Shown here in pieces: positions 15,820 to 30,629 of a stretch of DNA of 31,292 bases. The position numbers and the translations under genes are program-made. A model generated the notes under the pieces. The model was not told where the DNA came from and did not search any database. It saw nothing but the letters and a program-made list of their open reading frames with translations. Numbering within the stretch: the first letter of the stretch is position 1; every line of letters begins with the position of its first letter. This DNA comes from a virus, in IMG/VR virus record IMGVR_UViG_3300033143_002264, positions 1-31,292 of that record; one strand, given 5' to 3'.

Positions 15820-16297
15820 ACTTGTGTTGTTTGTTAATACTGAACTAGGAGAGTTTCCTACTACTGAGTTTACTGAATTTAACTTTACAGGATTTGGATT
15901 GCATGGTAGGAATGTTGTTGCATTCAGTCAAGATGGTATTGTTGAACTTGGTGGGGATACTGATTTGCTGGCAGGGATAGAAGGAATGGTTGAGTTTCCT
16001 TCATCTGACTTTGGTTCCATGCAGCAAAAAAGAGCTCGTGCTATATTCATTGCAGGAAGAACTACTGAAGACTTAACTGTTTCTATGTCAGCTGATAACG
16101 GTACCTGGAAATCTTATTTAGTAAAGACTTATGGGAACTGGAAGAAGGGACTGTTTAAGAAGACTATTAACCGTGAGCAGAAGGGTGGGAGTTTAGGCTT
16201 TAAGATTGAGAATATCGATGGTGGGGATTTTCACCTTGATAATGTCACTGTGACTATTCTTGAACTTCATAATAAACCTAGCGAAATTGGACTTTAA
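15812..16297 (+). CDS. Hypothetical tail-region protein
   Basis: The 161-residue protein starts MNKLVLFVNTELGEFPTTEF. It is mostly beta, with an acidic middle (GIVELGGDTDLLAGIEGMVE), a basic stretch (YGNWKKGLFKKTINREQKGG) and a final beta hairpin (FHLDNVTVTILELH). The shape, a strand-rich body of about 150 residues with acidic and basic patches, fits a small tail-tip or hub subunit. It is overlapped at its start by the repeat protein and followed one base later by the 877-residue tail protein, so the three are probably translated together. The family is unknown to me. Confidence 0.6.
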   Translation: MNKLVLFVNTELGEFPTTEFTEFNFTGFGLHGRNVVAFSQDGIVELGGDTDLLAGIEGMVEFPSSDFGSMQQKRARAIFIAGRTTEDLTVSMSADNGTWKSYLVKTYGNWKKGLFKKTINREQKGGSLGFKIENIDGGDFHLDNVTVTILELHNKPSEIGL

Positions 16298-16298
16298 G

Positions 16299-18932
16299 AT
16301 GAGTACATTTTCTTTTAAATATACTGGCGATGAAGAGATTGCAAGGTCTCTCATGCGCTTTGCTATGAAGCAGGCCGGTATATTGAAAGAGCATTGTGCC
16401 GTGAATAATCTGCTGACTAGTCGTCGTTTGCTTAAGGATAAATCAGGGCAGATTATTGAAATCATTAAATCCAATGATCACTTTCACTGTGTTATTTATG
16501 TACCTAAAGTAACTGCCGCAAAAGTAATAAAAGAGATTGAGATACCTAGCCGCTTGTCTAATATAATGTTAGCAGGTGAGAGGTTTTATGGGTATAACTA
16601 TATAACTGATGCTCTTACAGCATTTGGTGAGACTAATCAGAAGACTGATCTTACTCCTGGGTATAATGGAGTTAGTAATGTTCTTCCTTATTTAAGCATT
16701 AGTAGTACTGGTAATGTAATAGTCTGGGAAACAGATATATCAGATGTATCATACCTCTTTGGTATTAATGCTTACGAGTTGACTGTTTTCTCAGATGGGG
16801 TTAATATTTATGGACTGCATGGGACTGATCTTGGAAGGATTGGGACTATTCAGGCACCGGATATATTACTTCCTGAATTATGTAACATGCAAGGTTCCTT
16901 AGGTGGACTGACTGTCTATAAATCATCAGATGCTTGGAATCTTTATAGAGGAGTTATTCTTTATACACTCAACCCAGTAAATCAGATTTTGTTAGATTCA
17001 TGGTATTGGGTTCCCTCCTTTTTCACCGCACAACCAGCAGACGCCTTTGGTCTTCCTCCGGGTTTTTACTATGGCAAGTATCCATATTCTAATTATGGCA
17101 TTGAGACAGCGTTAGAAAGCCTCAAGGTATCATTCAGAACATTAATGAATACGCGTTACACCAGCGAGACCGGCGCATATCAATATGGATGGATTGAGCA
17201 GGTTACCGAGGTGAATGGTGAGGCGGTTTCTGACTTGCATATCTATTTGCAGCAAACGCCTTTAACTGTCCCAGGTCACAGCAATTTTGGCTACTTGAGG
17301 ATTGCCGGCACCACGGCTGACCAGTTTATAACTGTCGGCTCCGATCTACCTGGATTCGAGGCTGCGCTAGTCCTGACTGTAAATGGGACGCCTGAGGTGG
17401 ATCTTTGGAATTTTAAGATCTGGACTACCCCAGATGCTTTGCTACCGACTCAGGATAGTGGAGTCGGGATCGCAGTTATAGACGGCCCAAACGCCACGTT
17501 CCGTAGATTTACTGGTGCAACTGCTACTGTGTTGGAGACAGCGATCTACCATTCTCATAGCGTTAGTCAGGATGGTACAATGCTGGCAGTGTTTGAGTCT
17601 GATGATGGTGTGCTAATCTCAGGGGTAAGAGTATTTGATCTCTTTGGTGTGCGGACAGATGTAAAGAAAGCTGAGTATAGCAGTGGAGGATTTACTGAAT
17701 TACGCATTAGCTTTGTTGTTGCTGCAACATCAGCTGTAGCTGGTTGTCTGATTCCTTATCGGACTGAAGATTTCGAACCGCTGACTTTGCCTTACGACCT
17801 GGCAACTAGTGCACCAGTAGTTCCAGACATTACAGATTATATTCTACCATTCTCATCACTCTCTATGATGTATTTCCCCAAGAATGCTGAGAGTGCCCCA
17901 CGTTTCACAAAGGTTATCTGCACAAATGGGGTTGACGCTGACCTTATTGTGTCAGAAGATGAATGTTTTGACAGTACAATTACTATAGAGCCAATAGGCG
18001 AAGGTATTACTGAAGAGAAGTTGGTTGGTTCGTGGGATGCTGGCGGAATTTTAAACGGAGTGGTACGTGGAGACTACAGCCAGAATGGTAGCACTATTCG
18101 TTTCGTAGGTGTTGATACCGATGGGGCTGAGACTGTTACCAAGGGAGACATGACTCTTGAGGAGGATATATTTGGAGACGTGACTCAGCAAGGGGGGCTC
18201 GGATCGATTACGATTATTGGACCAGAAGATACTCCTGATCAAGATTGCGATGAACAGATTTATACTAAATATTCAGCCGTCTCCTCGTGCGGGCAAATGG
18301 CTATATTGGAAGAGACAGTTCCAGGAATAGTAGCTTCTCCTGAAATTACTGAGCCGGCATCAGGAGACCTAGTTGACGTGGGTACTAATATTCATATTAC
18401 TGGGGGTAAGCCTCCATATTCTGTCGTAGCATACAATATGACAGTTACCAAGATTGATGAAAATAATTGGGAAATAGCCACTGTTCCAACATGTATAGGG
18501 GATGAGTCTGCTACAGCGACTATAACAGTTACGGACGACTGTGGAAGACAGGATGTTGCTGAAGTACGCCTTGATATTACCTATGCTAGATGGTGTTGCG
18601 ATAATCCGAATAGCCCACCTTTATACTGTACTACCTCAGTAGGAAGTATTCGGTGGAACTGTACTTCTGATGATACTCCTTCGGTAATAGGTGACGCTTG
18701 TCTTGATGGAGGATCATCAGTAAATGTTGACGGGTATGCGAATCTTATAGGCGCAGTGTATTTTATCGAGAACATAAACTGCAAAAAGAATAATGCTAAT
18801 TTGATAGCTTGTACCGCTCCTGCAGATGGAGGCAATCCGTGTTATCCTCTTGCTGGTGATTGCCAGGCTGGTGGAATAGCTAAATCGTGCGTGCAGCATC
18901 GCTGGTATGGCTACTGGCGGTGTCCTTTATAG
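16299..18932 (+). CDS. Large tail protein with Ig-like and Cys-rich end
   Basis: The start is ATG 16299, one base after the previous stop; an in-frame TTG at 16260 is less likely. The 877-residue protein opens with a helical segment (ARSLMRFAMKQAGILKEH), then a long beta region. Residues about 710-765 look Ig-like (TEPASGDLVDVGTNIHITGG, PPYSVVAY, ATITVTDDCG). The last 110 residues hold many cysteines (ARWCCDNPN, YCTTSVGS, CKKNNANLIAC, CQAGGIAKSC, WRCPL), suggesting a disulfide- or metal-stabilised tip. A part near 17010-17500 uses more C- and G-ending codons than its flanks, hinting at module exchange. It is probably a tail appendage or spike. Confidence 0.65.
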   Translation: MSTFSFKYTGDEEIARSLMRFAMKQAGILKEHCAVNNLLTSRRLLKDKSGQIIEIIKSNDHFHCVIYVPKVTAAKVIKEIEIPSRLSNIMLAGERFYGYNYITDALTAFGETNQKTDLTPGYNGVSNVLPYLSISSTGNVIVWETDISDVSYLFGINAYELTVFSDGVNIYGLHGTDLGRIGTIQAPDILLPELCNMQGSLGGLTVYKSSDAWNLYRGVILYTLNPVNQILLDSWYWVPSFFTAQPADAFGLPPGFYYGKYPYSNYGIETALESLKVSFRTLMNTRYTSETGAYQYGWIEQVTEVNGEAVSDLHIYLQQTPLTVPGHSNFGYLRIAGTTADQFITVGSDLPGFEAALVLTVNGTPEVDLWNFKIWTTPDALLPTQDSGVGIAVIDGPNATFRRFTGATATVLETAIYHSHSVSQDGTMLAVFESDDGVLISGVRVFDLFGVRTDVKKAEYSSGGFTELRISFVVAATSAVAGCLIPYRTEDFEPLTLPYDLATSAPVVPDITDYILPFSSLSMMYFPKNAESAPRFTKVICTNGVDADLIVSEDECFDSTITIEPIGEGITEEKLVGSWDAGGILNGVVRGDYSQNGSTIRFVGVDTDGAETVTKGDMTLEEDIFGDVTQQGGLGSITIIGPEDTPDQDCDEQIYTKYSAVSSCGQMAILEETVPGIVASPEITEPASGDLVDVGTNIHITGGKPPYSVVAYNMTVTKIDENNWEIATVPTCIGDESATATITVTDDCGRQDVAEVRLDITYARWCCDNPNSPPLYCTTSVGSIRWNCTSDDTPSVIGDACLDGGSSVNVDGYANLIGAVYFIENINCKKNNANLIACTAPADGGNPCYPLAGDCQAGGIAKSCVQHRWYGYWRCPL

Positions 18933-21538: not shown

Positions 21539-24500
21539 ATGGCTATTGACTTTAGAAGATTAGTAATGGAAGAGGCAGCGGCTAGTCAGAAAGAAGAGAC
21601 TAAGATCGCACAATCCAGGCAAAAGGCCTTGGCAGACCCGTCCATAGCGGATAAAAGAATTGCATCTTATTTAAAGGAGCAGATTCCCGCTGGGGCTAAG
21701 GTCAAAAAGGCCAGGTATGCCAATGAGACTGATGCTGTAAGTTCGTTCTTTCAGGAAGATGATCCTAGGAGAGATCTTGGCGATCGGATTAAAAAGAGTT
21801 ATAATAAACTGCTTACTGATCCTAATTTTGCTGATCTTGATCCTGATGAAGGTTTGAATATTGCTACTAGGGTAGAACAGGAGAGGCATAAGACTGCTAC
21901 GTTTGAGCATATTAGAAGAGCGAATGCCCCCTTTCTTGGGTTCTCTGCTGGAGTAGGTGAGGCTCCTGGGTATCAGGAATGGAAAGAAGGGAAGAGAGCT
22001 GAAGAGGATATTACTGCGAGTGAGAGAGAAGCAGCTGGGTTTATCGCTGGTGCGCCTGAGCGTGCGACTATTGGTGCGGCCTTTGCTGGAGCAGGACTTG
22101 CGGTTTCTAATACAGCAAGAGGAAGGGCAGTTGCACAGAGTGCGGCTAAGGGAGCGGATTATTTAGCTAAGAAGGTTGGTTCTAAAATCTTTTCTAAAGT
22201 TGCAGCACGTGGATTGATGGCTGCTCCGCATCCTCTAGCAAAGATAGCTGGTGCTGCGTTATTCGCAACAGCAGATCTTTTTGTTATGGATAAAGCGCTG
22301 GAACTTGTTGATGATACTGAGTGGGGTCGAGCGAATGTAGGGACTAAGAAGAAACTTGCGGCTGATCTTGTCCTTGGACTTGCATCTGGTGTAGCGACAC
22401 ATAAGGCTGTTACTGGTATAGCTAAGAAAAGCATGGTTGCAGCTATGGAGAAGGGGATGCTTTCTAAGCAGGCTACGCAAATGCTTGGGAAATTGCCGAC
22501 TGGTGAGAATGCTATTAATGCGTTTAAGGCTCAAAGGGCTAGTAGGGTAGCTACTGCTAGGTCTAAAGGATTGAATGCTGGGAAAGGGATTAAAGAGGCT
22601 GTTGAAGAAGAACATAGAACAATGCTTGCGCAGTCTTTGAAGGAAGCTGAAGAGAGAGGGATTGTTGAGGATATTGCTGCTGCAGATGTAGCTACTGCCA
22701 GAAGGCTTGCACCAAAAGATACTGTAGAAGGAAAAAGAGCGGCTAGATTAGCCGGCGAACTTATTGATGAGGCTGAGGTTGGCCAAGTTGCTAGAGATCG
22801 GATTCGTATTGAGCAGCAAAGAACTCTCGCAGCTAAGAAGGTAAAAGACCTTTCGGATGATGAGGTTGGTCAGCAAGTTGCTTGGATGAAAGAGGAGTTG
22901 GAAAGAGCTGGTGGGATTAAGGAAAAGAAACTTACAGTTGCTGGGATTCAGAAGAGGCTTACTGCGTTGCAGAAGGAAGGTGAGACTCGACTGGCTAAAC
23001 ATCTTAAGGCTATTGATGAAGAGAATATTCCTGTTGTGCAGGATAAGATAGCTAAAGGAAAGAGTGCTTCAGTAGCTGCAAAAGAAGTGGCTGATGAAGA
23101 GAAGTTAATTGTAAAGGTTGCTAAGGAGACTCCTGCCGCGGCTATTGCTAAGAAGAAAGTGGAGAAGAAGTTAAGTCCAGTAGCCCAAAAGAAATTGACT
23201 GAACAAAAACTTAAGTGGGCGGCTCAGACTAAGAAAGAGATTACTGCTGTTGAGGCAAAGGTTGCTGCTGAAAAGATAACAACTAAGACTATTGAGCAGA
23301 GTAAGCATGAGATTGCTGTTAACCTTCGTAACCAAGCAAGGCGCGAAGGTATTGCTACTGGGGCTGAAAGGGCAGAGACTACTGTAGTCTTTGGGAAGGA
23401 TAATCCTCCGCCGATTATAGCTTTTAGAAAAAGCAAGCAGACCGCTGAGGATCTGGCTACTTATCAAGCAGCTGTTGAGAGACCTGGAGTACAAGCTGCT
23501 CAAAGTGATGTAGTTCGTGGGCTGAATAGTGAGGAATGGACAGCCTTTGAGAAGAGGGCGAATACTTTGGTGGCTGAGGGTAAGGCTAAGCAAGGGCTAG
23601 CTGAAGGGACTCTTACTGAGAAGGAAACGGTCTTTGCAGAAACATCAAAAGTTGATGAGGATGCTGGCAATACGATCACATTGTACAGGGGTACAAGCAG
23701 TGGCGGTCTGGAGCCGCGTGAAGGTTATGCTACGTTCGCTTCCAGCAGTAAAGAGGTTGCAGCGAGTTATGGTGATACCATACCTTTTGAGGTGAACACT
23801 AAAAATGTGATCGAGTTCCCAGTTACAAAATCAAAACGAAGCAAAGGGAATGAGTTTGACAAGTTTGCATTTGACGAGGCTGCTACTAAACTTAAATCTG
23901 GTCAGGTATTAGTAGCTAGGAATGTTTACGACCCTGGCCCATTAGCAGATGATATAGCTGATCCTGATAGATTGTACTCATATGCATCTGATATATATGC
24001 TTTCCCTAAAGGTGCTGATCTTAAGCCGAAGGTCTTTACTAAGGGCGGAAAGAAATTAGCTGAGATGTCCGATGATGAAGTGGAAGCTGTTATCGCTAAA
24101 GAACTTGAGGGAAAAGTTCCTGGTGTTAGTGAAGTAAGCGATGTTACTGAGGGGGTTGTCGCTGGAGCTACTGAAGTGGTTTCTACGAAAACTGGTAAAA
24201 GGGTAATTAAAAGGAAGAGTTCTAAGACCGCTTCTATTGCTGCACTTGCGGGAGCAGGAACTCTCTCTATGCTTTTAGCTGAAGGGATTGCGCCTCAGGA
24301 GGCTGAAGCTGGAGTGGTTGGATCGCTTGCAGGGTTCTTGGCAAAGCAAACTGAGAATATACTGAAGGCTGAAGGGAAGCAGGTTACTAGGGCTGCGATG
24401 TCAAAGAAGGCAGTCGAAGAAGGGTTTGTGCATGGGGTTGAAAAGAGTCCCTTTGAACTTCTTCCTAAATTGAAGACTCTTTCTATTGCCCCTGCAGAAG

Positions 24501-26626
24501 CGAGTATTAAAAGTACTGATAGAATGGCTTTAGGATTAGATCACTTGCTATCACCTAAGTCCGTTGAGGGGCATCATTATGTAGATGGGCATGGACCTGT
24601 TATAGAGTTAGTGTCGAGGACTACAGCGTCTTTTAATGATGCTGCTCATGGTATGACAAGGGTTAATAATATACTGGATGAGGTTCCTGGGGCAGTTGGT
24701 GCTGAGGCTAAAGCAGCAGCTAAGGATATCGCTAAGGTTATGAAACCAGTTGATGACGCAATGATGCCGCTGGTAAATGAGAGGGGATATTTTACCGCGG
24801 AGATTAATAGAGCAACTAAGGATATGAAGAAGTATCTTAAAAAGGCAAAGGCAGGTGATGCTGAAGCAGTTGTTAATGTAGAGCTTTTTGAGACTCAGAT
24901 AACAAAGGCAAAGGCAGCGCTTACTGGTACTGATGATGCGTTTGCAGCGGCGCAAGGTCAGTGGGAAAGCACTGTTAAAGGATTGGCAGAAAAATACCCT
25001 ACTACAAGGATTGCCTTGGCTGTCGAGGATACTGCTGAGTTTGAGGCGTACCCTTGGCTGAGAGGGAAGTTGAGTCATCAGGAGAACGTCGCGGTTGCTA
25101 GGTTGAAAGAGATTAATAGGGAGTATGCTAGCAGGATTGAAGAAGTTGGTATGAAAGCTATTACTGAAAAGGACTTTATCCATCATGCTCAGCACCCAAT
25201 GCGCGATCAAGATGCTATTGGAAAGACATTTGATAAGCTTGGGGTGAGCAGAGATGCCGCAGCGAGTATGTCTAATTTACATCATAGGTCTGTTGGATCA
25301 AAGTTGATGATGCCTGACGTAGAGTATGTGTTTGCTAGGTACCTTCCTGATGTAAATAAACGGATTCAGTTTCATGATTTCTGGGAGAACTCTGGTTGGC
25401 GTAAGCATATGGAAGAGAGTGCTATGGTTAAGTCTTCTCAAGGGCTTACTGACTTCTGGATTAAGTTAAAAAGAAGCTTTGATATGCCGAGTAATAGTAA
25501 GACTGACCAATGGGCGAATCGATATAACTCTATTGAAGTCTTTAGACTTCTTGCGTTGAGTCCATCAGTAGCTTTTAAACATGCGATTAAGGTTACGGCT
25601 ACTTTAGCTAGTCATGATATTGGCGTAGCAACTAGAGCGATTCCAACAGCTTTAAGATACTCCATGAAGAATGCACTGAAGGAGCATGGGCCGAAGAATT
25701 TGGCTAAGAAGATTACATTTACTGAGGAAGAGCAGGCTATTAAAGCGTTTACTAGGCAATCCTCGTACTTAGAAACGGTTGCTGATCTTGAGCTGAATCG
25801 TGTTCCTACTCAAGCATTTGACAAGCTCCTGAGTACTATGAACCAAAAGGCTTCAGTCTTTATTGATACTGTTGAGCAGTTTGACAGGGGCGTTTCTTAT
25901 TTGGCTAGTATGGAGATGGCTGGGAAGCGTGGGATGACTGTTGAACAAGCAACCTATGGAGTGTTTGATACTATCCTGAAGAATAACTTTCTTGGCGGGC
26001 AGCAAAACCCAGCGTGGATGCGGAATCCTAAGGTCAGGAGTTTCTTCATGTTTCAGAGTACACCATTTAAAATTTGGGAGAGAAGGTTGAATCAGATTAT
26101 GCGATCTGGGAAAGCTCTTTCCAGGGCGCAACAGGAAGTCTGGACTCAGATGAAGGATATTAAAAAGAACATGAAAGAAGGGGAGCAACTTTTTAAGGCT
26201 GGGTTGATTAAGGCAGCATTGGAGAGTGAGAAGGATCATTTTGGGACGCCGGTTACTAAGCAATTGATGAAAGAGATGTTAATTCTTGGAGCACTTGTTA
26301 CGGGGGCAAATAAGTTAGGTGATGTTGATCTGACTAGTCATGCTTTCCACCTTCCCTTCTTGAAGATGAATACTGCGGAGCCTGGGCTAGTTATGAACCC
26401 AGCATTAAGTGCGACGTATAAAACCTGGCAGGATAAAGATGTGGAAGAGGATGAGTTCTTTTTTAATCGACTAATGCGGAATTGGAGTAGAGATTCTGGC
26501 TTACCATCTACTGTTGTTAAGGGTATGAGGTTAAGTAGAGGTGATATTCCAGAGCGTTATTTGGATACAAAGAATCCAGCTCTTGCTTATATGTTTGGTG
26601 CCCCAGCTGTCGGTTCCGGCCACTAA
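21539..26626 (+). CDS. Giant internal virion/ejection protein with ART-like domain
   Basis: The 1695-residue protein starts behind AAGGAGATAAAGA. Residues about 170-290 are Gly/Ala-rich and partly hydrophobic (ATIGAAFAGAGLAVSN, AGAALFATADLFVMD), possibly membrane-inserting. Residues about 330-690 are a long Lys/Glu coiled coil. Residues about 712-830 resemble an ADP-ribosyltransferase or polyvalent-protein domain: LYRGTSSGG, YATFASSSKEVAASYG, a later EFDKFAFDEA and YSYASDIYAFPKG. A hydrophobic stretch (IAALAGAGTLSMLLAE, about 902) follows. The last 600 residues contain the internal-virion phrase RSFFMFQSTPFKIWERRLNQ. It would be packed in the capsid and ejected with DNA. Which parts are enzymatic is not proven. 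Confidence 0.75.
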   Translation: MAIDFRRLVMEEAAASQKEETKIAQSRQKALADPSIADKRIASYLKEQIPAGAKVKKARYANETDAVSSFFQEDDPRRDLGDRIKKSYNKLLTDPNFADLDPDEGLNIATRVEQERHKTATFEHIRRANAPFLGFSAGVGEAPGYQEWKEGKRAEEDITASEREAAGFIAGAPERATIGAAFAGAGLAVSNTARGRAVAQSAAKGADYLAKKVGSKIFSKVAARGLMAAPHPLAKIAGAALFATADLFVMDKALELVDDTEWGRANVGTKKKLAADLVLGLASGVATHKAVTGIAKKSMVAAMEKGMLSKQATQMLGKLPTGENAINAFKAQRASRVATARSKGLNAGKGIKEAVEEEHRTMLAQSLKEAEERGIVEDIAAADVATARRLAPKDTVEGKRAARLAGELIDEAEVGQVARDRIRIEQQRTLAAKKVKDLSDDEVGQQVAWMKEELERAGGIKEKKLTVAGIQKRLTALQKEGETRLAKHLKAIDEENIPVVQDKIAKGKSASVAAKEVADEEKLIVKVAKETPAAAIAKKKVEKKLSPVAQKKLTEQKLKWAAQTKKEITAVEAKVAAEKITTKTIEQSKHEIAVNLRNQARREGIATGAERAETTVVFGKDNPPPIIAFRKSKQTAEDLATYQAAVERPGVQAAQSDVVRGLNSEEWTAFEKRANTLVAEGKAKQGLAEGTLTEKETVFAETSKVDEDAGNTITLYRGTSSGGLEPREGYATFASSSKEVAASYGDTIPFEVNTKNVIEFPVTKSKRSKGNEFDKFAFDEAATKLKSGQVLVARNVYDPGPLADDIADPDRLYSYASDIYAFPKGADLKPKVFTKGGKKLAEMSDDEVEAVIAKELEGKVPGVSEVSDVTEGVVAGATEVVSTKTGKRVIKRKSSKTASIAALAGAGTLSMLLAEGIAPQEAEAGVVGSLAGFLAKQTENILKAEGKQVTRAAMSKKAVEEGFVHGVEKSPFELLPKLKTLSIAPAEASIKSTDRMALGLDHLLSPKSVEGHHYVDGHGPVIELVSRTTASFNDAAHGMTRVNNILDEVPGAVGAEAKAAAKDIAKVMKPVDDAMMPLVNERGYFTAEINRATKDMKKYLKKAKAGDAEAVVNVELFETQITKAKAALTGTDDAFAAAQGQWESTVKGLAEKYPTTRIALAVEDTAEFEAYPWLRGKLSHQENVAVARLKEINREYASRIEEVGMKAITEKDFIHHAQHPMRDQDAIGKTFDKLGVSRDAAASMSNLHHRSVGSKLMMPDVEYVFARYLPDVNKRIQFHDFWENSGWRKHMEESAMVKSSQGLTDFWIKLKRSFDMPSNSKTDQWANRYNSIEVFRLLALSPSVAFKHAIKVTATLASHDIGVATRAIPTALRYSMKNALKEHGPKNLAKKITFTEEEQAIKAFTRQSSYLETVADLELNRVPTQAFDKLLSTMNQKASVFIDTVEQFDRGVSYLASMEMAGKRGMTVEQATYGVFDTILKNNFLGGQQNPAWMRNPKVRSFFMFQSTPFKIWERRLNQIMRSGKALSRAQQEVWTQMKDIKKNMKEGEQLFKAGLIKAALESEKDHFGTPVTKQLMKEMLILGALVTGANKLGDVDLTSHAFHLPFLKMNTAEPGLVMNPALSATYKTWQDKDVEEDEFFFNRLMRNWSRDSGLPSTVVKGMRLSRGDIPERYLDTKNPALAYMFGAPAVGSGH
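23637..23656 (+). repeat. Dispersed 20-bp element, copy 8
   Basis: CAGAAACATCAAAAGTTGAT, two mismatches from the commonest form, with a perfect ATCAA/TTGAT inverted repeat. It is inside the giant internal protein gene, encoding ETSKVD, about ten codons before the ART-like domain. Confidence 0.85.
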
Positions 26627-27021: not shown

Positions 27022-28230
27022 CTATGAAGCTGAATACCAAATTCCCTTATAGGTTTTTCCTTCTTTCTTAGTAATAAAGTCACGTTGAACTCTGCCAGTA
27101 GCAAGGGCTGTATTAATTACGTTATCGAATTTCATCTTGTCGATGTCACGCCAGACCATAGACATGAGAACTTGCTCTGATATGGTTCCGCGTTCTCTGA
27201 TAATTTCCATTACCATATCAACGTCAGCTGTGATTGAACTTCTACCTACGGCCCGGAAGACTCTAGCCATGTGACCTTCAATGCTTTCTATATCCTTGAC
27301 AGCAATAGTAATGTGTCTTTTTTGTATGAATAGGTCATCACTTTCAGATGCCGCGAGAATCATGGAGAGTTTCTGGATGTATAGTGGCTTGCGTGAGTAC
27401 CATCCATCGAATGCTTTGTCCTGAGCGATTCGCCTGGGGTCATGCTCTTCATAAGTCATGTACCAATCAATCCAGTATTGTTCGGCTTCTGGTGTGAATT
27501 CGTATACTCCACTGATTTTAGAGATTCTGAAAAGGTCCTTCTTCAGCTTTTCACAGAGCGCTGCTGTTTCTTCGTTGTAAGTTGGGACAGGGATCTTCTT
27601 GTCTTTCTTTCCTGCCCAGACAAATAGGATGCGGGAGGTCAGGCCACCGCCAATTGCGCTTGGTGGTAAACATGAAGCAAGACTTTCCGGCGTAGTAGCG
27701 CCTAATAAGTTTACAAAAACGCTTGGGATTATGTTCGTTCCGCTGCCTTTCGTTCGGTAACTCCATGGTTTCTCCGAGCAGTCAAAGAGGTCAGTTAAAA
27801 GGACGAGCATTTTAGTATTCTCAGTCTTCTGACCTAGGAAAGACTCGAATTCTCCTGAGATGATTGACATTGAGCTATGGCGGAAAGTGCTGCCATCTCT
27901 CATGACCTCTTCACAGGCACTTTTCTCTAAGTCTTCGAGGAGTGCTTCTCGCGTGATCGAATCCGCACTGGTGTAGATATCAGGAATGTCTTCAAGTAAC
28001 TCCTTTCCGAAGTCAATGGCTGTTGTCTTTCTGGCAGTACCAGGCTCAGCTACCAGGACAATATACATATTAGGGAAAATTTTCATTCTGCCAAGGACGA
28101 GTTTAGCTTTCTTTCGCATGACTGCAGCGATAAGTGAAATCCCTACCCACTTGTGAAAGACAGCGGCAGACTCTGTATCCTTGTTGTATTCAAGGTAGGA
28201 GTCTAACCAGCTAGAAAGAATACGGCTCAT
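27022..28230 (-). CDS. DUF3987/RepA-like replication ATPase (helicase-like)
   Basis: The 402-residue protein starts MSRILSSWLDSYLEYNKDTE and overlaps the polymerase gene by ATGA. AEPGTARKTT (residues 61-70) is a Walker-A-like loop with atypical residues. MSIISGEFESFLG (121-133) gives Walker B with Glu127. FVNLLGATTPESL (172-184) is the sensor strand, and GGLTSRILFVWAG (195-207) provides the arginine finger. This order fits DUF3987-type P-loop ATPases, which act as primase-associated or replicative helicases in many phages. The C-terminal 100 residues form a winged-helix-like part. Its pairing with a DNA polymerase supports a role at the replication fork. No primase domain is present in this protein. 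Confidence 0.65.
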   Translation of the reverse strand: MSRILSSWLDSYLEYNKDTESAAVFHKWVGISLIAAVMRKKAKLVLGRMKIFPNMYIVLVAEPGTARKTTAIDFGKELLEDIPDIYTSADSITREALLEDLEKSACEEVMRDGSTFRHSSMSIISGEFESFLGQKTENTKMLVLLTDLFDCSEKPWSYRTKGSGTNIIPSVFVNLLGATTPESLASCLPPSAIGGGLTSRILFVWAGKKDKKIPVPTYNEETAALCEKLKKDLFRISKISGVYEFTPEAEQYWIDWYMTYEEHDPRRIAQDKAFDGWYSRKPLYIQKLSMILAASESDDLFIQKRHITIAVKDIESIEGHMARVFRAVGRSSITADVDMVMEIIRERGTISEQVLMSMVWRDIDKMKFDNVINTALATGRVQRDFITKKEGKTYKGIWYSAS

Positions 28231-30629
28231 ACTAAGTCCTCATGGTATGGCACCCAGGTTTTTACCCCGTCTACCTTGATTTGAATTTCTACGATCTGTG
28301 CCTCAGGATGTATCCTTGCCTTAGTCTGGTGCCCCCAATCTCTGCCAATTGAATAGTCAGATTTGACGACCATAGTATCACCGTTGAGATGGACTTCTTT
28401 GTACATGGAGGTAGCCATAGCTGTCATAGCGTAAAGGACAGATTTGTGATCTTCTTCTGTGTCTACGTAAATGGCGTCATGAAGCTGAAGGAGAACGTCA
28501 AGGTGATCTCCGTAGTCATTGTAGAAGTCAGTGAGTGACATGTTCATTAAGTCACCGATATCACTCTGTGGCATGAAGGCGTAGGCTGAGCGGAACATCT
28601 GATCATCAAGACGTCCCATGAACTTACGCCTCCTACCGAATGCGTTAATTAAAGTACGATCAATATGGAGTTGTTTTACTACCTCACTTTGCCAGTGAAC
28701 AAGCTTGGGATTGACTGAGATGTAAATATTCAGAAGTTTCTTAGCATGAGCGAGGGCACATCCGAGTTTTACTTGGACTACCTTCGGACCAGCAGAATAG
28801 TTCGTCGCGTGACGAAGAGTCTTGCCTACCTTTCTTTCATCACCATCAGGATCTATTTCAGTCCAGGGCTTTCCAAACATCTCGCCAGCAGTGTGTGCAT
28901 GGAGGTCTTCATTCCTGTCAAAGATTCCTTTTAGCTTTTGGTCATTTGTTCTAAATGCAACATCAACTGCTTCAGCTTGGATATAGTCCGCTTGGATGAT
29001 GACGCGCCTTTGAACTGGGGATTCGTACATCTGGCGTACATAGTAAGTAATGTTTTGAAGATTCCCCGAGCCGTAAGGAAATATGATCGACTCACTTGAA
29101 CTCCATCTTCCTGTGTCAGTTTTACAAATATTATAACAGGTATGATGGTGACCTTCTTCACTGGTTTTCGCATTGATTACTCCTAGGAGTTTGTGGGATT
29201 TCCTGCACTCGAGGATTAGTTTGAGGACTGGGTTATTTACCAAGGTTGCAAGGTGGTTAAGGGCATCTTCTTCAGTAGTCATCTTGCGCGGATCAGATGC
29301 TCTTACTCGGCGCTTATATTGAGCAGGAAGCCCAAGATCTACATAAAGGAGTTGGATTAACTGTTTCGGAGAGTTATAGTTAACCTCCCTGCCACAAAGA
29401 GTAGAGAGTGCTTTTTTAGCAAGGGCAAGGCGTTCCTCTTGTTCCTTGACCATTCTCTCTCTAGTCTCAGAGTTAACCTTAATACCACGCATTTGCAGCA
29501 TCATAGCGACGGGATATTGGGCTATCTCCATGTCATAGGTTGCTCTGACACCGAGAGTCTCCATTTCCTGTTCCATGACTAACCAAATGCCAAGGGTATT
29601 CATAGAGTCTTGGGCATTGTATGCGCCGTGGTAGTCTTTATTGTCTTGCTTCCAAGCAAGGACGTCAAGACAAAGGGAAGTTAGAAAGCCTAGTCCTCGT
29701 TCAAGTTCTGGCCAGCAAACATGTGCTGCGACGAGAGTGTCTGCAATAGTGGCGTTGACATTGTTAGGATCAAACCCAAGAATTCCGTTGTTTTTCCAGA
29801 GGACAAGAAGGTCATAAGTTCCGTTCTGCCATATAATGAGCTTACCGCATGTGAGCACCTGTGACAAGAGGTCCCAGATTTCTGCTTCCTGAGTACCTGG
29901 ATGCACAGGCATGTGGCCGGATAGGATTGGAATGGACATACCAAAATCTGGGTCATGGCTGAAAGATATCCTTGATATGTGGGAATTCGGAGGTGTAGTT
30001 TCGATGTCGCAAGCGAATTGCGTTATAGTAGGATCGTTGATAAGTACATGAGCGTAGTTTTTGAATTGAGCAAGTGTTGCATCGGCAATTATTACTCTGT
30101 TATCTGGGGGCATTCCAGCCGAGTTTTGGTGGCGTTTAAGCTTACGCATGTCCATTACTACAGGAAATGCCCACTCCATTTTAGCGTTGACAGAGCTAGG
30201 ACTAAAAGTAGGAATTACTTTTGTTCCTGGATGGAGGGTAGATTCCAAAAGGCTGCCGCGGAAGTTTTTAAGATTACGAGTGCCGCAAACAGCCCAGAGT
30301 GCAGTATGGCCCAGAGTGAGGATAACGTTAGGTTTATAATCTTCAATCTCTTTTTTAAGTTGCTCAAGGTATTCCTCCATTAATGGCTTGGGATGAGTGC
30401 AGGTTTTGTTTGTAAAGAAGAAGGATGCGTTACCTCCTGGGGGGCGTTCTTTGCAGGCAAAGGTAATGGCACATTCGTAGCGAGAGATACCAGCCTGGGA
30501 AAGGAGCTGAGATAGGAGTTGCCCTGGTTGCCCCGCGTATGCCTTTCCGACTGATGCATCGATTTTCCCTGGCAGGGAACCGACGATCATTATCTTGGCG
30601 TCCTTAGGACCCTGGATTAAGAGTTCCAT
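28227..30629 (-). CDS. UDG-like / family A DNA polymerase fusion
   Basis: The 800-residue protein has three parts. Residues 10-165 resemble family 4/5 uracil-DNA glycosylases (VGSLPGKIDASVGKAYAGQP, FACKERPPGGN, PNVILTLGHTA), but the usual HPS motif reads FSPSS (142-146). Residues 200-350 are a 3'-5' exonuclease (ACDIET, Asp208/Glu210; WQNGTYD; YNAQD 337-341). Residues 375-800 are a PolA polymerase: motif A ADYIQAE (Asp548), motif B ERKVGKTLRHATNY with His607 where Phe/Tyr/Leu is usual, and motif C LQLHDAIY, in which the canonical HDE is HDA. It replicates the phage genome. The fusion is known in some phages; the motif changes are noteworthy. Confidence 0.88.
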   Translation of the reverse strand: MELLIQGPKDAKIMIVGSLPGKIDASVGKAYAGQPGQLLSQLLSQAGISRYECAITFACKERPPGGNASFFFTNKTCTHPKPLMEEYLEQLKKEIEDYKPNVILTLGHTALWAVCGTRNLKNFRGSLLESTLHPGTKVIPTFSPSSVNAKMEWAFPVVMDMRKLKRHQNSAGMPPDNRVIIADATLAQFKNYAHVLINDPTITQFACDIETTPPNSHISRISFSHDPDFGMSIPILSGHMPVHPGTQEAEIWDLLSQVLTCGKLIIWQNGTYDLLVLWKNNGILGFDPNNVNATIADTLVAAHVCWPELERGLGFLTSLCLDVLAWKQDNKDYHGAYNAQDSMNTLGIWLVMEQEMETLGVRATYDMEIAQYPVAMMLQMRGIKVNSETRERMVKEQEERLALAKKALSTLCGREVNYNSPKQLIQLLYVDLGLPAQYKRRVRASDPRKMTTEEDALNHLATLVNNPVLKLILECRKSHKLLGVINAKTSEEGHHHTCYNICKTDTGRWSSSESIIFPYGSGNLQNITYYVRQMYESPVQRRVIIQADYIQAEAVDVAFRTNDQKLKGIFDRNEDLHAHTAGEMFGKPWTEIDPDGDERKVGKTLRHATNYSAGPKVVQVKLGCALAHAKKLLNIYISVNPKLVHWQSEVVKQLHIDRTLINAFGRRRKFMGRLDDQMFRSAYAFMPQSDIGDLMNMSLTDFYNDYGDHLDVLLQLHDAIYVDTEEDHKSVLYAMTAMATSMYKEVHLNGDTMVVKSDYSIGRDWGHQTKARIHPEAQIVEIQIKVDGVKTWVPYHEDLV

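Follow-up and report, generated by a model that had tools for sequence, protein, structure and literature searches.

The question that this locus raises is whether a phage DNA polymerase with altered residues in both its polymerase domain and its N-terminal glycosylase-like domain is an unusual replicase, or an ordinary replicative enzyme that carries a glycosylase fold as a non-catalytic part. The locus is located in IMG/VR virus record IMGVR_UViG_3300033143_002264, the whole of which (31,292 bases) is our window, and it encodes a family A DNA polymerase (PolA) of 800 residues, hereafter the query. A preliminary description of this DNA had noted that motif C of the query reads HDA instead of HDE, that a histidine occupies the position of Phe762 of the E. 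coli polymerase, and that the motif III histidine is missing from the glycosylase-like domain; the three features had been taken together as the mark of a biochemically unusual replicase. All three residue assignments agree with our alignments, but that reading needs revision, since the comparison of the query with 104 relatives has revealed that the two polymerase changes are clade markers. The reading that we prefer, with a probability of roughly two in three, is that the query is a working replicative phage PolA with a glycosylase fold as a non-catalytic part.

The profile of the polymerase domain (DNA_pol_A, PF00476) matches the open reading frame (ORF) with an E-value of 6.5e-43 (147.5 bits, against a curated cut-off of 34.3), the profile of the uracil-DNA glycosylase (UDG) superfamily (PF03167) matches it with an E-value of 4.2e-21 (75.9 bits, against a Pfam cut-off of 24.3), and phrog_17 (DNA polymerase) spans residues 6-774. 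The AlphaFold 2 (AF2) model of the whole protein has a predicted local distance difference test score (pLDDT) of 94.3 and a predicted template modelling score (pTM) of 0.91. The gene, its domains and the codons of interest are located as follows:

28227..30629, minus strand: gene of the UDG-like / 3'-5' exonuclease / family A DNA polymerase protein, 800 residues (Pfam PF03167 and PF00476, phrog_17, AF2)
30120..30629, minus strand: N-terminal family-4-like UDG fold, residues 1-170 (AF2 domain model, VIA-align, alignment to PDB 1ui0 and 1vk2)
30576-30578, minus strand: codon of S18, UDG motif I position (read from the DNA)
30459-30461, minus strand: codon of F57, UDG motif II position (read from the DNA)
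30201-30203, minus strand: codon AGT of S143, UDG motif III position (read from the DNA)
29550..30095, minus strand: 3'-5' exonuclease domain, residues ~179-360, borders approximate (D208, E210, D273, Y337 and D341 by alignment)
28320..29549, minus strand: family A polymerase domain, residues ~361-770, borders approximate (residue alignment to E. coli)
28809-28811, minus strand: codon CAC of His607, E. coli Phe762 position (read from the DNA)
28473-28475, minus strand: codon GCC of Ala719, E. coli Glu883 position, where H717-D718-A719 form HDA (read from the DNA)

The replicative part of the query has been compared with E. coli positions that were verified on the K-12 polymerase gene. The DEDDy residues of the exonuclease (D208, E210, D273, Y337 and D341) correspond to E. 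coli D355, E357, D424, Y497 and D501, and all five are invariant in the 104 relatives. The polymerase domain contains R508, D548, E553, R599, K603, H607, Y611, H717, D718 and A719; its catalytic Asp pair is formed by D548 and D718 (E. coli D705 and D882), R599, K603 and Y611 of motif B correspond to R754, K758 and Y766, and H607 and A719 are aligned to F762 and E883. E. coli R668, D705, K758 and Y766 are also kept in the query and are invariant in all of the relatives. Residues 179-770 of the AF2 model have the PolA fold (VIA-align Z 35.1 to PDB 6vdd, 544 aligned residues, root-mean-square deviation (rmsd) 3.0). The exonuclease and core polymerase residues of the query are thus intact, and its chemistry residues look ordinary.

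The relatives were obtained by alignment-based scans of viral contigs, which gave 167 loci, partly on shared contigs (the best 80 of 305 and the best 80 of 126 relatives); the former scan used the UDG motif as its pattern and favours members with that motif, while the latter used exonuclease patterns only. While scans of this kind found many relatives in viral contigs and three in genome contigs, scans with a single protein (the query against viral contigs, and locus L171 against genome contigs) found none. In 177 loci, 188 ORFs were matched, 41 of them partial or split, and a limit of 90% identity left 104 of the 147 full-length ones; a second scan gave 29 rows of the query's subclade, with the query included and two near-duplicates removed. 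The tree is a quick one, for which the trait columns and the UDG domain were excluded and only exonuclease and polymerase positions used; it has several long branches, two of which (L016 and L090) are joined.

Position 762 is His in 99 of the 104 relatives, Phe in four and Tyr in one, and the 99 His762 relatives form one clade with the query (98% in the Shimodaira-Hasegawa-like approximate likelihood ratio test); only two changes of this residue are needed on the tree. Position 883 is Ser in 91 relatives, Ala in nine, Gln in two and Glu in one, with a gap in one. His762 and Ala883 occur together in 29 of the 29 rows of the query's subclade. A neighbouring residue of the query that fills the HDE or the HPS position, named beforehand as the refutation of the residue assignments, was found in none of the 105 phage rows of the alignment. 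His607 and HD(S/A) are traits inherited within one large clade of phage PolAs. Among the phages of this clade for which a host is named are Kuura (Caulobacter), VS-ABTNL-3 (Vibrio), Mel-JY34 (Microcystis), Tiera (Polaromonas), P5 (Aeromonas) and Ph_15 (Pseudomonas). HDA is also combined with Phe762, in polymerases of Yersinia and Serratia phages. In one subclade row (L203, 6025-8316) motif C is LDA, with the His881 position lost; the other rows of the subclade are not LDA.

It could be argued that His607 and HDA together produce a markedly different chemistry, i.e. in metal use or in the incorporation of ribonucleotides or dideoxynucleotides; we consider this unlikely. Glu710, the steric gate against ribonucleotides, is kept in the query as E553, and Ala or Ser occurs at position 883 in predicted polymerases of Gordonia, Streptomyces, Klebsiella, Bacillus and Staphylococcus phages, with HDA itself in those of Gordonia, Streptomyces and Klebsiella phages. 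The available part of the paper on DpoZ, the 2-aminoadenine polymerase of phage phiVC8, calls the HD dyad universal and reports Ser at the third position of motif C in this studied enzyme and in the polymerase of phage T5 (PMC8599892), where the query has Ala, likewise a residue other than Glu. Since HDA or HDS is found in DpoZ, in T5 and in several other predicted phage PolAs, HDA alone is not a sign of a damaged metal site, as had been proposed. The query is not itself assigned to DpoZ: it scores 52.3 bits with profile NF038380, where 500 are required, and its best stretch is residues 330-580.

The case for a change of chemistry is found at position 762, where substitutions alter the speed and accuracy of known enzymes (PMC9069017, in the part available), and where His607 lies outside the described viral PolA classes: one survey reports Leu, Tyr and Phe groups (PMC6302109) and a later one retained only F, L or Y (PMC9069017), both as far as their accessible text goes. 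It is thus possible that His762 alters nucleotide handling. We have found no paper on a phage PolA with histidine at this position in a search that covered few subscription papers, and neither "histidine" nor "his762" occurs in the accessible parts of PMC6302109, PMC9069017 and PMC13228545. As the filter of one survey took Phe, Leu or Tyr at 762 only, His762 enzymes were left out of it. Virus polymerases are classified by position 762, which is also used in metagenomes as an indication of phage lifestyle (PMC6302109 and PMC9069017, in their available parts), and the removal of a large clade by such a filter would bias this work. The His762 clade, large and little studied, also offers enzymes for the study of nucleotide handling.

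Two further positions vary among the relatives. The position of Glu710 is Asp in 85 of the 104 and Glu in 19, as in the query, which requires one change on the tree; Asp710 accompanies Ser883 in 84 rows (a gap in one) and never Ala883. Arg754 of motif B, a triphosphate contact, is Arg in 89 relatives and Tyr in 15 (e.g. L017, L046 and L133).

The N-terminal domain presents a different picture. The match lists of whole-model Foldseek and VIA-align searches were filled by polymerases, and the domain was therefore folded and searched alone; its AF2 model has a pLDDT of 96.9 and a VIA-align Z of 23.1 to UDGa of T. thermophilus (PDB 1ui1, 159 aligned residues, rmsd 1.6). The whole-domain fold is common to the family 4 UDGs (T. 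thermophilus UDGa, PDB 1ui0/1ui1, and T. maritima TM0511, PDB 1vk2), with Z of ~23 and 31-33% identity in the structural alignment. In these enzymes the acid of motif I, the Asn of motif II and the His of motif III have roles in the catalytic site, the Asn reads the uracil, and four cysteines hold a [4Fe-4S] cluster. The query has S18, F57 and S143 at the three motif positions of 1ui0 and 1vk2, and S143 also aligns with the motif III His of the phage relatives; the replacement of motif I (GSLPG where GEAPG is expected) and of the motif II Asn, as well as the absence of the N-terminal CxxC, had not been noted in the preliminary description. The KC cysteine is replaced by Glu61, while C77 is kept and aligned to a cysteine of 1ui0, so that most of the cluster cysteines are missing. 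The query is also below the cut-off of the family 4 profile TIGR00758 (66.8 bits against 125.3) and of the UdgX profile TIGR03914 (57.5 against 189.95), and the KRRIH loop, the motif of UdgX, is absent from its translation. The domain is predicted by the model to keep the family 4 fold, yet both the motif residues of a glycosylase and the cluster cysteines of the N-terminus are missing from it. Excision of uracil has likely been lost, as was suspected from motif III, judging from the replacement of three motif residues.

The cysteines and the motif residues differ in their distribution. CxxC and the KC cysteine are absent from 99 of 99 His762 relatives and present in the five relatives of the 104-row set that have another residue at 762; as the tree gives His762 a single origin, the loss counts as one event and not as 99. 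In loci added later, CxxC occurs in no His762 row (a few are cut at the N-terminus), and the KC cysteine occurs in three of four Phe762 rows. The motif III His, on the other hand, is present in 70 relatives and absent from 34, with at least 17 changes on the tree; this count is approximate because of the long branches, and the direction of the changes was not inferred.

In the query's subclade, the motif III His is kept in 23 of the 28 rows with data and is absent from the query, L189, L190, L198 and L210, for which three changes are needed. The query, L189 and L190 form one lineage (95%), in which Asn57 is replaced by Phe in all three and the His position is occupied by S, S and A. Because those 23 rows combine the motif III His with Ala883 and His762, the loss in the UDG domain was an event apart from the changes in the polymerase. 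The idea that the two sets of changes form one functional combination has accordingly been rejected: His762 is clade-wide (99/104), Ala883 marks the subclade (29/29), and the UDG loss is an event of its own. The motif II Asn is missing from 23 of the 34 rows without the His and from five of the 70 rows with it (Fisher p 2e-10, kinship ignored); in an average over 12 kin-independent pairs, the change in Asn follows that in His in 5.8 and runs against it in 0, while 6.2 show no difference in Asn (p between 0.008 and 0.5, with a median of 0.03).

We have next to consider whether a UDG-like domain of this kind could still excise uracil, or another base, through different residues. The fold is intact in the model, and other enzymes of the UDG superfamily use different catalytic residues; all three motif positions are replaced, however, Ser18 is found in none of the 104 relatives (94 have Glu and 10 Asp at motif I), and the S, S and A of the loss lineage do not amount to a single conserved new residue. 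We regard such activity as very improbable. A separate UDG gene that takes over the activity was also tried as a candidate and rejected: no second gene of the superfamily was found in 49 records, many of which may be fragments. Exactly one UDG-superfamily match occurs in 48 of these records, each in an open frame of 789-912 residues, and none occurs in G011, which holds L141.

That the domain serves as a uracil sensor, which binds uracil without cutting and thereby causes pausing or a choice of template by the polymerase, is a proposal that the fold of the model would allow. The Phe of UDG stacks on the uracil, and an aromatic residue, Y31, is located at its position in the query. Active-site mutants of UdgX (the H109 series) have been crystallised with uracil, according to the structure titles, so a disabled site may still bind. 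The proposal has nevertheless been weakened, as the query and its two nearest relatives, L189 and L190, have Phe57 in place of the uracil-reading Asn. Furthermore, dUTPase is found in only two of the 49 records, both with the motif III His, and no uracil-linked gene context has been seen in these partly fragmentary records. We consider a sensing role quite improbable.

What the domain has retained can be seen from the comparison of 33 members of the His762 clade without the motif III His and 66 members with it. In the former, L91, G107, R124 and D160 are conserved at 100%, W123 and S126 at 97%, and R154 and R163 at 94%. N57, by contrast, is kept in 33% of them (95% of the members with the His) and R149 in 30% (91%); G21 and N66 also drop. 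The query keeps R124, S126 and D160, and has F123, A154 and K163. The ratio of nonsynonymous to synonymous substitution rates (dN/dS) is saturated for most pairs, which makes the evidence on selection thin. In L025/L036, the only scorable pair in which both members are without the His, it is 0.17 in the UDG domain and 0.12 in the exonuclease and polymerase. L209 and L210 are 94% identical, and L210 is without the motif I Glu and the motif III His, both of which L209 has; their dN/dS is 0.045 in the UDG domain and 0.037 in residues 200-1100, with an intein-like insert included. As L209 is motif-intact, this pair alone is no proof of constraint after loss; it is, however, a close natural pair with and without the two residues. 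In 17 pairs where both members have the His, the median is 0.36 in the UDG domain and 0.49 in the exonuclease and polymerase, many values being near saturation, so that the comparison is weak either way.

Several findings weigh against a retained role of the domain. In the RGS motif, G125 is conserved at only 64% in members without the His, against 100% in those with it, and the query departs from two otherwise conserved non-catalytic residues (W123F and R154A). The median UDG dN/dS of 16 mixed pairs is 0.42, against 0.36 in the exonuclease and polymerase, although many of these pairs have a high dS. At 55-65% polymerase identity, the UDG domains of pairs without the His are 44.5% identical and those of pairs with it 57.4%, so that constraint is relaxed in the former. 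Lastly, the N-terminal part of the PaP2-like polymerases is reduced to a short stretch that has an RGS-like motif and a weak link to UDG (hhalign 41%). This group comprises Pseudomonas phages PaP2, 119X, PaMx41 and Ph_15, Polaromonas phage Tiera, EBPR podovirus 3 and Aeromonas phage P5; the four sequences analysed (Ph_15, Tiera, EBPR3 and P5) fall within the His762 clade, and therefore the UDG domain is not strictly needed there. Motif C is HDS in the group but HDE in P5, and the RGS-like motif is AGS in P5; 16 Pseudomonas records are at least 99% identical to Ph_15; some of these are duplicates, and one match is partial.

On these findings one might regard the domain as a decaying, functionless remnant, retained only through its fusion to an essential enzyme: it diverges faster in lineages without the His, it has nearly disappeared from the PaP2-like polymerases, and it is shortened in Gordonia phage Nibbles. 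The low dN/dS of L025/L036 and L209/L210 speaks against decay, as do the well-ordered domain predicted by AF2 and the set of non-catalytic residues that are at least as conserved without the motif III His as with it. The domain also survives where the polymerase gene is split, either in a separate upstream ORF or together with the exonuclease. It is carried in the same ORF in 67 of the 69 ORFs with an uncut N-terminus from the exonuclease-pattern scan, the other two having it in a separate upstream ORF, and in 158 of 164 among all loci, where the six exceptions are pieces of split genes. We judge a mere remnant to be rather unlikely.

We thus return to the query as a working polymerase with a non-catalytic glycosylase fold. 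It would be the replicative family A polymerase of an uncultivated tailed phage, composed of a UDG-like fold, a 3'-5' exonuclease and a polymerase, which probably copies and proofreads DNA normally, with His607 standing in for Phe762 in the nucleotide site and perhaps some change in nucleotide selectivity. The N-terminal domain would no longer excise uracil and may be a structural or DNA-holding part of the polymerase, with a surface that includes F123, R124, S126 and D160. An extension to the whole His762 clade is put forward tentatively, at somewhat less than even odds: the cluster-less UDG fold would be non-catalytic in most members, with the glycosylase optional and dropped many times while W123, R124, S126, R154, D160 and R163 are kept, and His762 would mark a fourth natural class of viral PolA with a nucleotide selectivity of its own. 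The repeated alteration of the catalytic site of a glycosylase fold that is fused to a polymerase, while other residues are retained, offers a comparative system for a repair-enzyme fold within a replicase.

Among named phages, the order UDG-like domain, exonuclease, polymerase is shared by the phrog_17-type polymerases of Microcystis phage Mel-JY34, Caulobacter phage Kuura, Vibrio phage VS-ABTNL-3 and Desulfofustis phage LS06-2018-MD01, which are ~25-29% identical to the query. All four have His762 with HDS, where the query has HDA, and their motif III reads HPA, HPS, SPA and NPN, respectively; the Kuura and Vibrio phage genes are split, unlike that of the query. A solved PolA with such an N-terminal domain is the phiLo family A DNA polymerase with modified template (PDB 9qhs, 1142 residues, released 2026-03-25), larger than the query polymerase and more distant; its N-terminus matches the UDG-like domain with an E-value of 2.8e-11 in a search with the clade profile, and by fold with Z 15.8 over 157 aligned residues. 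No related paper was found under the entry code.

N-terminal matches to the UDG profile also occur in the SPO1-like Bacillus phage Goe24, Staphylococcus phage PSU4, Streptomyces phage KimJongPhill and Gordonia phage Nibbles (hmmsearch E-values of 1e-8 to 5e-11 in a set of 11 proteins; hhalign 94-97%). None of the four has His at the aligned motif III position, and the Streptomyces phage protein has one a residue later. A link between the SPO1 polymerase and UDG was reportedly described by Aravind and Koonin in 2000. Our literature search, which covered few subscription papers, found no paper on a phage DNA polymerase fused to a uracil-DNA glycosylase domain, and neither "uracil" nor "glycosylase" occurs in the accessible part of PMC11348598.

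Downstream of the polymerase gene lies a second gene, which overlaps its stop by four bases:

27022..28230, minus strand: DUF3987 / phage primase-like gene (PF13148; phrog_14296, DNA primase)

A gene of this kind is found downstream of the polymerase in 83 of the 104 relative loci. The other 21 comprise five with too little contig, two in which the hit overlaps the end of the polymerase beyond the set limit and 14 without it in the stretch examined; ten relatives without the motif III His have no DUF3987 gene in the downstream stretch (L103, L104, L105, L106, L108, L109, L118, L123, L146 and L165). In Mel-JY34, as in the query, a DUF3987 or primase gene directly follows the polymerase gene in the annotation, and in the Desulfofustis phage one short ORF lies between the two. 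On the plus strand of the window, PHROG matches identify phage head, tail and packaging genes; two large ORFs among these structural genes (21539-26626, 1695 residues, and 16260-18932, 890 residues) have no PHROG match at an E-value of 0.001.

A few further features were noted among the relatives. L227, from a metagenome-assembled genome of Desulfobacterales, and L003, the Desulfofustis phage, have links to sulfate reducers, which gives a faint indication of the host range in this section of the clade. Split polymerase genes are interrupted at about three recurring points: ahead of motif A, at the junction of exonuclease and polymerase, and behind the UDG domain (L006, L140, L142, L143, L161, L163 and L169; L005, L031 and L174; L102 and L135), in some cases with other sequence between the pieces. 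Intein-like in-frame inserts are located within motif B, between His-Gly or His-Ala and Asn-Tyr, in two distant subclades, one with L156 (L155 and L157-L159 are of similar length) and the other with L209 and L210.

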